38,833 bases of DNA from a virus, in the IMG/VR virus record IMGVR_UViG_3300003892_000011, positions 1-38,833 of that record, one strand, 5' to 3'. This document shows, piece after piece, positions 34,582 through 38,833 of this stretch. Under the pieces are notes generated by a model, which did no database searches, was not told the origin of the DNA, and saw nothing but the letters and a program-made list of their open reading frames with translations. A program made the position numbers and the translations under genes. The first letter of the stretch is position 1. The number at the start of each line of letters is the position of its first letter.

Positions 34582-34815
34582 ATGAAAAAACAAAATAAAA
34601 AACCACTGTCATCGTATTGTGTGAATATTTACAAGGGTAAATATCGTGTTAAAATAGAAGATGCTTATATAGAGTATGGCAACGGCGAGGAATACACAGT
34701 TGAAAGGTTGGCACATTTTCTAGAACCCGAAGAAATTAAATCCCAAAAATGGCTTAAAAAATGGGCAGAGGATTTTCTGAATGAGTATGTTAAGACATAT
34801 GAAACAACAAAATAA
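34582..34815 (+). CDS. Cassette gene 5: small protein of 77 residues
   Basis: It starts MKKQNK in an exact junction repeat and ends YETTK and stop in a diverged copy. A beta-like N-terminal half (YCVNIYKGKYRVKIEDAYIEY) is followed by a helix (WLKKWAEDFLNEYVKTY). No family is recognised. Confidence 0.6.
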   Translation: MKKQNKKPLSSYCVNIYKGKYRVKIEDAYIEYGNGEEYTVERLAHFLEPEEIKSQKWLKKWAEDFLNEYVKTYETTK

Positions 34816-35477: not shown

Positions 35478-35831
35478 ATGCCAGCACCCCTCGACACTTT
35501 AGACAAGAAAAAAAGATTTATTGAGTTTTACTCTCGCCCAGAGGTTCAAGGAAACATCTCAATGACTTGCGATGCGGTAGGAATTAACCGCCAGACTTAC
35601 TACAACTGGTTGGAAAAAGATGAAAAGTTTAGACAAGAAATGTATGAGGCAAAGATGAAGATGTGCGATGAGATGGAGCAGATACTTATCAGCAGGGCGG
35701 TTGAGAAAAGTGATACAGCTTTAATCTTTTGGCTGAAATATAACCACCCTCAATATAAAGAAAATCCTCAAGTCCAAATCAACCAGCAATTTATCTTTAA
35801 CAAACTAAAAGAGAAATATGGCGAACTTTAG
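35478..35831 (+). CDS. terS: Small terminase subunit
   Basis: A 117-residue protein from ATG 35478; an earlier in-frame start at 35340 would read through the promoter and is rejected. Residues ~24-47 are a helix-turn-helix (VQGNISMTCDAVGINRQTYYNWLEKD) of the kind that binds the packaging site, and the remainder is helical, for ring assembly. It overlaps the large subunit gene by 14 bases. Confidence 0.8.
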   Translation: MPAPLDTLDKKKRFIEFYSRPEVQGNISMTCDAVGINRQTYYNWLEKDEKFRQEMYEAKMKMCDEMEQILISRAVEKSDTALIFWLKYNHPQYKENPQVQINQQFIFNKLKEKYGEL

Positions 35832-36651
35832 AGATAAAGCTCAAATCTATGTAAATTTTATCAAAGATAATTTTGCTGTTGTTGCCAAAGACGGGCAAAT
35901 CAAGAAATTTTATGAGGACACAAATCACTGGAGGATACAGGAGGACTTTGTCTTAAATAAGGCAACAGGACGGGATGCGATATTGAAATCAAGACAATTG
36001 GGTTTTTCATCTATTATTCTTGCCATCTTCACAACAGATTTTCTTCTAAAAGACAATTCCTATTCAATGGTAGTGGCAGATAAATCAGACAACGCAGAAG
36101 ATTTGTTAGCTAGAGTGAAGTTTTATATAAAATCTTTTGAAGAGATAAACCAAGTAAAATTAGACTTAAAATACAATTCTAAATACGAGCTCTATAATGA
36201 AGAATTGAACTCCACTTATAAAATTGGCACGGCAGAGAATAAGGAGGTGGGGCGAAGCAAAACCATATCGGGATTGCATTTATCTGAATTTGCTTTTTAT
36301 TCAGACCAGGAAGCAATCTTAAGCTCTGCTTTACAGGCGGTTGTGCCAGATGGAAAAATTTTCATCGAGACAACAGCTAACGGATTTAATTTTTTTAAGA
36401 CTTTTTGGGACGAGTGCAAGAATGGCGAAAGACCTTTTAATCCTTTGTTTTATGGTGCAAGTCAATTTTATTCGAGAGAGTTTTTGGAGAATAAAAAGAA
36501 GGAGTTAAAAAATTATTATCCACAGGAATACCCAGAAACGGACGTTGAAGCCTTTTTGGCAAGTGGAGAATTGTATTTTGATAAGGAAGCATTAAGGTTT
36601 TATTTAGATAATGTTAGAGAGCCAATTAAAAATGATTTGATATATTTATAA
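35818..36651 (+). CDS. terL: Large terminase, ATPase half (split gene)
   Basis: A 277-residue protein. The variant Walker A is KSRQLGFSS (57-65), Walker B with the catalytic Glu is LHLSEF (153-158), and the coupling motif is ETTANG (184-189). The order matches the packaging ATPase domain of tailed phages. The frame ends shortly after YFDKEALRFYLDNVREPI, the linker that normally leads to the nuclease domain, which is encoded from 36756. An ATG follows the TAA at once. Together the two parts are 491 residues, the size of an ordinary TerL. Confidence 0.85.
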   Translation: MANFRDKAQIYVNFIKDNFAVVAKDGQIKKFYEDTNHWRIQEDFVLNKATGRDAILKSRQLGFSSIILAIFTTDFLLKDNSYSMVVADKSDNAEDLLARVKFYIKSFEEINQVKLDLKYNSKYELYNEELNSTYKIGTAENKEVGRSKTISGLHLSEFAFYSDQEAILSSALQAVVPDGKIFIETTANGFNFFKTFWDECKNGERPFNPLFYGASQFYSREFLENKKKELKNYYPQEYPETDVEAFLASGELYFDKEALRFYLDNVREPIKNDLIYL

Positions 36652-36780
36652 ATGATAGAAGAAATTATAGTTGGAATAATTTTTACATTTATTCTTGGGG
36701 TTTATAGTGGGGAAATGGGAATAAGACTTGGAATTTTATTAACTTTTATCTTAATATGTTTAGGCAATTTCGTCAAATAG
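36652..36780 (+). CDS. 42-residue double-membrane-segment mini-ORF inside terL
   Basis: ATG 36652 directly follows the TAA of the ATPase half. The protein is almost wholly hydrophobic, with segments ~4-20 and ~24-40 separated by GEMGIR, a helical hairpin. Its last 25 bases overlap the start of the nuclease half in another frame. It is unrelated to TerL. The match with the mini-ORF arrangement at 5819-5971 is striking. No ribosome site other than coupling is visible. Confidence 0.55.
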   Translation: MIEEIIVGIIFTFILGVYSGEMGIRLGILLTFILICLGNFVK

Positions 36781-37400
36781 AGCGTGGAGAATTTATTGTT
36801 GTTGGTGTTGATACAGCATCTGGCGGTGGTGATTATACCGCTGCCCAATTTCTTTCAAAAACAAAAGTAGATGTTCCGTTAGTTTATCACTCACCGATTA
36901 CGACGACGGAATTTACCAATCTTTTAGTGCCTACACTAGAAAGGATTTTCGATATAACAGGAATTAAACCAGTTGTTGCATACGAGAGAAACAACGGGGG
37001 AGCGTTTGAGATGGATAGATTGGCGGCAATGAATAGGCTTAATAAGTATGATTTATTCAAGATGCCCACCTTTGGTAGGGAAAATCCGCCCGAAGCCGTT
37101 CAATACGGCTGGACAACTTCTACGGCAACACGCCCTAAAATGCTTCAAGACCTGAAACAGGCGATAGACAATAAAATTCTCATTCTATACGACGGTGTAA
37201 CCATAGACGAGATGTATTCCTTTGTGGTCGTGCAAACCTCATCAAGCTGGAAAGCACAAGCTAATAAAGGAGCAAAAGACGATTTGGTGATGGCGCTGGC
37301 GATTGCTTGGCAGTTAAATAATAATCTTGAAGAAAGAAGTTTGTCTCAATCTTACTATCCTCGTTATGCGGGAGAAAAGAAAAACTGGAGTTTAGTATGA
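36756..37400 (+). CDS. terL: Large terminase, nuclease half (split gene)
   Basis: A 214-residue protein with an RNase H-like nuclease: VGVDTASGGGDYTA (Asp19), VAYERNNGG (Glu77) and KDDLVMALAIAW (Asp175/176), the three acidic sites of the headful nuclease. It lacks any ATPase part. In-frame it is open upstream only to 36708 (TAG at 36705), so it cannot be joined to the first half by a simple frameshift. ATG 36756 has no ribosome site and probably relies on re-initiation at the mini-ORF stop 22 bases downstream. It overlaps the next gene by ATGA. Confidence 0.85.
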   Translation: MFRQFRQIERGEFIVVGVDTASGGGDYTAAQFLSKTKVDVPLVYHSPITTTEFTNLLVPTLERIFDITGIKPVVAYERNNGGAFEMDRLAAMNRLNKYDLFKMPTFGRENPPEAVQYGWTTSTATRPKMLQDLKQAIDNKILILYDGVTIDEMYSFVVVQTSSSWKAQANKGAKDDLVMALAIAWQLNNNLEERSLSQSYYPRYAGEKKNWSLV

Positions 37401-37747
37401 GAAATTCTTATGTTACACCCTCGATAACTAAAATGCTTTATGGTTGGACCAAGTGGGGACGGGGCAATTTCGGTATTTTCAGAGAAATAACCGAAGAGTG
37501 GAACTGTCAGCTTTGCGGAGAAAGGCAAATAATCGGACTTCCTAGATATTTCTTCCCTCTAGATGACTTTAGACGGGATTTTTTAGTAGTTTGTTCGTCT
37601 TGCTGGCACGATTTACTTGAGGCGGGTGTTCACACTTATGAGGAATTGGATAAAAGAATAGGAATAGAGAAATTTAAGGAGCAAATCAGATTAAAAACTA
37701 TACAAATTGAGTTAAAATTGAAAACCTCTTTAGACGATGGCTTATAA
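37397..37747 (+). CDS. Zinc-ribbon protein between terminase and portal
   Basis: A 116-residue protein starting in an ATGA overlap with terL. CQLCGE and CSSCW are separated by about 30 residues, forming a zinc-binding unit, and the C-terminus is helical and basic. It may help DNA packaging or head processing because of its place, but no named family is recognised. The portal promoter lies within its 3' end. Confidence 0.65.
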   Translation: MRNSYVTPSITKMLYGWTKWGRGNFGIFREITEEWNCQLCGERQIIGLPRYFFPLDDFRRDFLVVCSSCWHDLLEAGVHTYEELDKRIGIEKFKEQIRLKTIQIELKLKTSLDDGL

Positions 37748-37748
37748 T
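37718..37748 (+). promoter_or_regulatory. Late-type promoter 7 (portal)
   Basis: TTGAAAACC from 37718 and TATAAT at 37743-37748, 19 nt apart. ATG 37755 is 6 nt after the -10. The promoter overlaps the last codons of the preceding gene. Confidence 0.75.
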
Positions 37749-37754
37749 CAGGCT

Positions 37755-38833
37755 ATGAGCGATTTAATCGAAGAGCTAAATTCCCATTATCAAGACTGGA
37801 GTGAAGATATAACCCAGAGAATAAACCGCAAACTTGGTTGGAAAGATGTTACCGATACTTATTATGGCGTTCTCCCTGATGATTGGCCATATGAGAGTCG
37901 GGTGGTTGACCCCAGAGTTAGAACAATTTTAATCGAAAAGAATTCAAGACTTACAGGAGAAAGAATAAGCGGTAGGGTTGTTCCAGTTGAAAATGCCGAT
38001 GTTGTCAAGGCTCGTATTCAACAAGCTTTACTTGAGTACCAATGGAGAATGGCGGATGAGGGAGGTTCAATGCAAACCAAACTTTCAATCTGTGATATGG
38101 ACGCCAGACTTTATGGCTCAAAGTTTGCTTTAATTGAATGGAGAGTAATGAAAGACAAAGACGGTAAAGTTGTTTACGAGGGCAATGAATTTAAACCCTT
38201 AGACATCAGAGACTGCGGGATTGACCCCACAGCTTCACATATTAGAGACGCTAAATGGTTTCAGCACAGGCAATGGGTTTATCTCGAAGACCTGAAAAAA
38301 GCAGTTGATGCCAAAGGTAAACCTCTTTTTAAGAATTTGGGCGAGATTGAAAAAAGACTTAAAGACAAAATCTCTGATACAAGAATTGAATACAACCCCA
38401 GAATACTTCAGATACAAGGGCGAGAGGACAGGATGGGTAAGGATATTGCCTTCCCGATGATTAAAATTGTCACCGAGTACAGAAAAGATAGATGGGTTAC
38501 CTTTTCCCCGACTTATAAAGTAACCTTACGAGATATCGAAAACCCTTACGATCACGGCAAAATTCCAATTGCACAACTTCGCTATCACGCTCTACAAGAC
38601 GACCCATTAGGAGAAAGCGAGGTAGAACCAGTAATTATGCTTTGGCGAGCACTTCAAGCTGTTTTATGCGGTTATATGGACGAAGTAGTCTTGAAGATGA
38701 ATTCACCCATAATTGCCCTCTCAAACGCTTACCGCCCTGAAACTATTAATTTTGCACCTCGTGCCATATGGGAAGTGGATAGGCCAGATGCTATTACTCC
38801 TTATCGTTCAGAAGCAAATTCGATTCAGTATTT
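37755..38833 (+). CDS. Portal protein, N-terminal part (continues at base 1)
   Basis: The frame runs from ATG 37755 to the window end without a stop (359 codons plus two bases). It contains a conserved-looking RVRTILIEKNSRLTGE region, ARLYGSKFALIEW and HGKIPIAQLRYHALQDDPLGESEVEPV, a pattern typical of portal clip and wing regions before the long stem helix. It continues in frame at base 1. The gene sits after TerL, as in most tailed phages. It has a late-type promoter and a leaderless ATG. Confidence 0.85.
   Translation, partial: MSDLIEELNSHYQDWSEDITQRINRKLGWKDVTDTYYGVLPDDWPYESRVVDPRVRTILIEKNSRLTGERISGRVVPVENADVVKARIQQALLEYQWRMADEGGSMQTKLSICDMDARLYGSKFALIEWRVMKDKDGKVVYEGNEFKPLDIRDCGIDPTASHIRDAKWFQHRQWVYLEDLKKAVDAKGKPLFKNLGEIEKRLKDKISDTRIEYNPRILQIQGREDRMGKDIAFPMIKIVTEYRKDRWVTFSPTYKVTLRDIENPYDHGKIPIAQLRYHALQDDPLGESEVEPVIMLWRALQAVLCGYMDEVVLKMNSPIIALSNAYRPETINFAPRAIWEVDRPDAITPYRSEANSIQY

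Follow-up and report, generated by a model that had tools for sequence, protein, structure and literature searches.

A viral lineage with its large terminase encoded as separate ATPase and nuclease chains

Described terminases and the layout of the locus

The large terminase subunit (TerL) is usually one protein, and in models of the T4 gp17 motor the ATPase pulls the nuclease/translocation domain via a covalent hinge. Cutting T4 gp17 at the linker abolishes translocation (PMC3012670; PMC9958956). TerLs in two genes have already been annotated in Arthrobacter cluster AY phages, according to PMC11920828, which cites Gavin et al. 2024. The isolates with such genes are viable phages: Arthrobacter cluster AY BillyTP (PP978841), Auxilium, Faja and Seahorse, and the Gordonia phage Meyran. 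In the BillyTP record the ATPase occupies 600-1679 and the nuclease 1663-2259, and Meyran is similar. The report by Gavin and co-workers is said to be a Cluster AY annotation report. Neither the phrase 'split terminase' nor a paper analysing a two-gene TerL was found in the open-licence literature; the two-gene TerL is known by annotation and little described. What is new here is that the split is universal in an old lineage, that other genes lie at the junction, and the hypothesis of a trans helix.

The window, which is the whole stretch of DNA analysed, comes to 38,833 bases and is a virus record of IMG/VR. The features that concern us are as follows.

35478-35831, plus strand: terminase small subunit, 117 aa, from ATG 35478 (PHROG small-subunit families, best phrog_4044, E 9.6e-14)
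35818-36651, plus strand: TerL ATPase chain, 277 aa (phrog_2, terminase large subunit, E 1.4e-14)
36568-36648, plus strand: residues 251-277 of the ATPase chain, its C-terminal tail, which corresponds to helix 1 of the nuclease fold and is proposed to dock in trans
36646-36757, plus strand: 112-nt insertion, its ends placed to within a few bases (delimited against the ten relatives at 82-86%)
36652-36780, plus strand: hydrophobic mini-ORF, 42 aa, in the ATPase frame directly 3' of the TAA; no homolog found
36756-37400, plus strand: TerL nuclease chain, 214 aa, RNase H/RuvC-like (phrog_24361, terminase, E 1.6e-11)
37397-37747, plus strand: small protein between nuclease chain and portal (ORF; no significant family match)
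37737-38833, plus strand: portal/head-tail adaptor, running off the contig (phrog_332, E 1.2e-6; phrog_1216, portal, E 8.4e-6)

The TerL halves are placed between the small terminase and portal genes, as in tailed-phage TerL. The small terminase gene overlaps the ATPase start by 14 nt, and the same 117-aa gene is found at the equivalent place in two relatives (L003 and L016). No tRNA is present in the window. A 25-nt sequence around ATGAAAAAACAAAATAA is repeated at successive gene boundaries between 33437 and 35334 (at about 33442, 33614, 34003, 34268, 34582 and 35313, with a variant at 34799), and as a result several neighbouring ORFs end in NEKTK or begin with MKKQN.

The identity of both halves is supported by profiles and by structure. 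Against solved structures, the only terminase matched by the ATPase profile is the T4 gp17 N-terminal domain (E 2.7e-8), and the nuclease profile matches the RB49 and T4 gp17 nuclease domains (E 2.5e-7 and 3.7e-5). The AF2 model of the window ATPase chain (pLDDT 89) matches the T4 gp17 ATPase domain with E 6.2e-12. Neither half matched a TerL family of Pfam at E 1, whereas PHROGs and PDB profiles did match. Both domains of a TerL are thus present, in two closed ORFs instead of a single polypeptide.

The initial annotation had described an ATPase ORF ending at a TAA, a 42-codon ORF beginning on the next base and an overlap of its end with the nuclease ATG. All of this is borne out: the TAA is at 36649-36651, the ORF runs from 36652 to 36780 and the overlap with the ATG at 36756 is 25 nt. 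The TerL motifs, which it had listed as complete, were located as a Walker A-like KSRQLGFSS, the Walker B LHLSE and the coupling motif ETTANG in the ATPase chain and as the acids of VGVDTASGGGD, AYERNNGG and DD in the nuclease chain. Its placing of the parts in different frames is right for the nuclease half but not for the mini-ORF, which shares the ATPase frame with the TAA alone between them. The usual TerL length that it gave the two halves together is an overestimate, as they sum to 491 aa compared with about 530-550 aa in the fused relatives inspected (531 aa in the nearest, L046); the halves are shorter because the variable linker is missing.

Extent of the split and the proposed two-chain TerL

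Loci were collected by searches of viral and genome contigs and classified with profiles of each half. The split lineage comprises at least 58 distinct loci, the window included, with ATPase chains about 48-86% identical. Among the matches listed, the split is at the same place in 58 of 58 loci and none is fused; from about 48% ATPase identity upward every match is split, and nearly all at 37% or less are fused, with TerLs of about 500-600 aa. A fused relative in the interval of 37-48% may exist beyond the matches listed. The catalytic motifs of both halves are retained in nearly all of the 58 listed loci. For the ten close relatives dN/dS is about 0.05 (median omega 0.052 for the ATPase and 0.053 for the nuclease); both halves are under strong purifying selection. 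In an ATPase tree of 100 sequences, a single branch (SH-aLRT 99) separates the 55 split ones from the rest, so that split and fused states require one change, and the nearest neighbour of the split clade is the fused L046. The split TerL is real and is the normal state of the lineage, not an error. Sequence and comparison show an ancestral break with both genes kept in all sampled descendants.

The fused relatives (L046; L169 and L170, from Bacillaceae contigs; L186 and L221, from Paenibacillus) are homologous to the split lineage along both domains. They differ in that one chain of about 530-590 aa holds both domains and that the variable linker is longer, and their ATPase identity is 37% at most. 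Another of the nearest fused relatives, on a Collierbacteria contig (L168, 1424-3818), has a TerL of 798 aa, long enough to hold an intein. Four TerLs in the fused part of the tree (L048, L071, L175 and L227) are broken at other positions, where they carry additional segments, a frameshift or a stop in frame; these breaks are unrelated to the conserved split. The phage collection contains no close named relative of the split-TerL lineage.

The AY-type phages and Meyran resemble the lineage in having ATPase and nuclease in two consecutive genes (overlap 14-32 nt in the genes inspected) and in a break that shortly precedes the first strand of the nuclease. Their nuclease chains begin 13-22 residues before the first catalytic Asp, and that of the window begins 18 residues before it. 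They differ in that no gene lies between the halves in the three inspected. The window ATPase has no sequence similarity to that of BillyTP (BLASTP E 0.12), and the BillyTP halves gave no useful match to PDB sequences. AY type and window lineage each have their own fused relatives; in Persistence, a phage related to the AY type (40%), TerL is still fused. The AY-type origin therefore looks independent, and TerL was most likely split on two or more occasions, each time at this position in the structure.

Our proposal is that an ancestor of the lineage broke TerL at one surface loop into an ATPase chain and a nuclease chain, and that all sampled descendants have since kept both genes. In most members a separate ATG, which overlaps the 3' end of the ATPase gene and frequently follows a Shine-Dalgarno sequence embedded in the ATPase C-terminus, would start the second chain. 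The junction now takes in other genes, as any gene boundary does, and here it has acquired a 112-bp piece with a 42-aa hydrophobic ORF. The ATPase chain would carry the hinge and the first nuclease helix, and structure prediction suggests that this helix could dock in trans into the nuclease chain and so replace the covalent link needed for DNA translocation. Two chains, portal and small terminase would then make up an otherwise ordinary packaging motor. As a whole we give this reading a probability of about 0.8. The initial annotation had offered a working two-chain terminase as one of its two explanations, and this one is well supported by the fixation of the split in a clade of at least 58 loci, by whole genes between the halves in several of them and by the plaque-forming Arthrobacter and Gordonia phages that share the architecture. 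A large natural lineage and an independent actinophage one with two chains would provide a natural experiment on the role of the link. Two-chain TerLs would also allow separate expression, labelling and control of stoichiometry of motor parts. For annotation, two-chain terminases are easily miscalled as pseudogenes or errors.

The junction between the halves

The 112-nt insertion (about 36646-36757) is seen only in this contig when compared with the ten relatives at 82-86%, which are split without it. The initial annotation had the mini-ORF splitting TerL and possibly coupling its halves, and had looked to an intact terL lacking this segment as the contrary observation; relatives lacking the segment do occur, yet they are still split. 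Since the mini-ORF lies inside an insertion private to the contig and the relatives are split without it, it is not the cause of the split, nor is coupling through it supported as a general rule. Judged by the relatives, the insertion appears both private and late.

It is improbable, but the least improbable of the alternatives, that the 42-aa ORF is a functional third part, anchoring one half at the membrane or tuning translation of the nuclease chain. The ORF begins on the base after the ATPase stop. It is somewhat longer and clearly more hydrophobic than shuffled sequence predicts (P 0.035 for being open over 42 codons and P 0.007 for this hydrophobicity given an open frame, which is weak statistical support), and for these reasons it may be a real gene for a small membrane protein; T-rich DNA, however, codes for hydrophobic residues regardless. 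No homolog was found by tblastn in the fetched loci, by a DNA pattern scan of viral contigs or in phage records. The relatives manage without the mini-ORF, and other members carry unrelated inserts at the same place. No Shine-Dalgarno sequence precedes the nuclease ATG in the window and its closest relatives, and the nuclease start there must therefore depend on coupling; in the window, ribosomes leaving the mini-ORF could feed it. Local re-initiation via the mini-ORF, or a membrane role, may occur in this phage.

For the lineage at large the two-chain reading is supported by a junction that appears, from its sequence, to behave as an ordinary gene boundary. In 45 of the 58 loci among the matches listed there is no insert and the genes are consecutive, overlapping or adjacent. 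In most of the ten relatives at 82-86% the halves overlap by 8 or 17 nt, for example TATGTTTAA, and in junctions such as ATATATGTTTAGAC the ATPase stop is built from F-R or F-K codons of the nuclease chain. In the other 13 of the 58 listed loci, 45 nt to 1.3 kb lie between the halves; the window is one of these, its two TerL genes being set apart by the 112-nt insertion. Among the inserts are an N6/N4 DNA methylase (L003/L016 and L154), an HNH_3 endonuclease (L023/L024) and, with a score short of the Pfam cut-off, a Methyltransf_24 protein (L153); the inserts of L025, L044, L128, L144, L165 and L167 are small or unknown ORFs. With whole genes between the halves, a joined chain is hard to imagine in such genomes.

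The nuclease ORF starts with ATG, GTG or TTG at the expected place in 56 of the 58 loci among the matches listed. Mean anti-Shine-Dalgarno pairing is -4.9 kcal/mol at nuclease starts and -2.0 kcal/mol at internal ATGs, with values at or below -4 at 49% and 19%, respectively (Mann-Whitney p 9e-5, not corrected for kinship). The Shine-Dalgarno sequence is often written within codons of the ATPase C-terminus (e.g. L032, L133 and L140). The two loci with no canonical start codon, L034 and L148, have ATC instead of ATG. A G-to-C change relative to the usual TATGTTTAG turns GTT TAG into CTT TAG A (L034, 1264-1300; L148, 2069-2100); the resulting UAU CUU UAG A, behind a strong GGGAGGG, is very like the prfB +1 frameshift site, and two contigs from different samples agree on the variant. 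These two loci would use either AUC initiation or +1 frameshifting.

The second explanation in the initial annotation, that RNA or protein is joined, is not supported. Joining of the halves into one TerL by +1 frameshift, ribosomal bypass, stop readthrough, RNA intron or split intein is very unlikely. The nuclease frame is mostly +1, as such joining might suggest (40 of the 45 insert-less loci among the matches listed), and the prfB-like site of L034 and L148 lies exactly where the ATG is lost. The frame is 0 in two and -1 in three of these 45 loci, however, and all three relations occur in loci with inserts; stop position also varies, and the ATPase stop is TAG in 28, TAA in 24 and TGA in 6 of the 58 listed loci. 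With no one frame relation or stop codon shared by the whole clade, most members must have the halves as separate chains. The start codon retained at the head of nearly every nuclease chain and the genes of up to about 1.3 kb between halves in some members also stand against a joined product.

The individual mechanisms fare no better. A T4 gene 60-type bypass with cognate landing is excluded, because in the window the sole matching landing codon, TTA 36702, leads into a stop when read in the nuclease frame. Programmed +1 frameshifting has no fixed frame relation or slippery stop site, with L034 and L148 as a possible exception. At the gathering threshold there is no Rfam match in the whole window, neither a group I/II intron nor another RNA element. 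A recoded stop at the junction was considered and rejected. A split intein was rejected also, as the chains end in NDLIYL and start with MFRQF with no extra sequence and nothing intein-like lies at the junction, though true inteins are found elsewhere in the clade.

The TerL of cyanophage Mic1 carries two inteins (PMC7156551). It is like the present lineage in that TerL is a target of mobile elements, and intein-like insertions occur in L027 and L148 too; it differs in that inteins rejoin the chain, whereas the junction here holds ordinary genes and no intein. In L148 (2091-3557) the insertion is in the nuclease chain after HDDL (CFVAGTKVL...VHN/C) and is missing from the otherwise nearly identical L034. 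In L027 (2283-4364) it interrupts the ATPase chain (ESCVSGDTLV...SHN/T); a separate, overlapping ORF encodes the nuclease chain.

Decay of terL or a sequencing or assembly error, which a single metagenomic contig with an insertion found in no other might invite, is barely credible and for the split itself already refuted, given the same split in 57 other loci among the matches listed, purifying selection on both halves and relatives split without the insertion.

Position of the cut in the fold

In L026 the halves are in one frame with a TAA between them, and the read-through can therefore be folded as one chain. It was folded by AF2 with an alignment of halves and fused relatives as input. The model (pLDDT 90.9, pTM 0.78) matches full-length T4 gp17 with a Foldseek E of 1.5e-23 and a VIA Z of 24.6 over 425 residues; the rmsd of 15.8 means that the domains match and their relative orientation differs. 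Solved ATPase domains (P74-26 and T4) align to residues 3-247 of the model. Nuclease structures (RB49, G20c, P74-26, SPP1, Sf6, P22, HSV UL15 and HCMV UL89) align from residue 241-246 or thereabouts. The stop corresponds to residue 270, downstream of the start of the nuclease alignment, so that both the hinge and the nuclease domain's first helix (249-257) are part of the ATPase chain. The model suggests that about 27 C-terminal residues of the window ATPase chain structurally belong to the nuclease domain, and that the cut would fall not at the hinge but past the first helix of the nuclease domain, some 25 residues into that fold.

Conservation points the same way: the ATPase tail keeps its conservation through the helix (as far as about residue 269 in the window) and becomes ragged beyond it, and in the nuclease chain conserved sequence starts at residue 2. 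When the window ATPase is folded alone, its body is confident and the blocks 251-260, 261-270 and 271-277 have pLDDT values of 62, 66 and 45; the equivalent tail blocks in the L026 read-through model have 94 and 82. As the tail is low alone and high together with the nuclease, it probably needs the nuclease chain as a partner. The contact in trans is deduced here from aligned ranges and from the pLDDT of a covalent read-through model. A cut after the first helix means that the ATPase chain probably clips onto the nuclease through it. That the two domains are non-covalently clipped subunits joined by a helix donated by the ATPase is a tentative part of the proposal, to which we give somewhat less than even odds. 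If true, the nuclease ring could exchange or have its own stoichiometry, and the covalent hinge of T4 would not be required for viral DNA translocation.

T4 gp17 (3CPE) shares both folds, ATPase followed by RNase H-like nuclease; no PDB entry matches the ATPase half or the read-through model better, and for the nuclease half it is among the best. It differs in being one polypeptide, and the natural splits are about 25 residues past the T4 linker cut. With the natural cut about 25 residues past it, the hinge stays on a piece of the nuclease fold that is able to dock. Docking in trans could explain why natural splits persist, whereas a cut at the gp17 hinge costs translocation.

The Walker A of the window (35985-36011) and of all relatives is KxRQxGFS, with the lysine at the start of the motif and Phe replacing the usual GK lysine. 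The Walker A lysine of lambda gpA is likewise at the motif start. The variant is shared by the fused L046, L169/L170 and L186/L221, and therefore predates the split.
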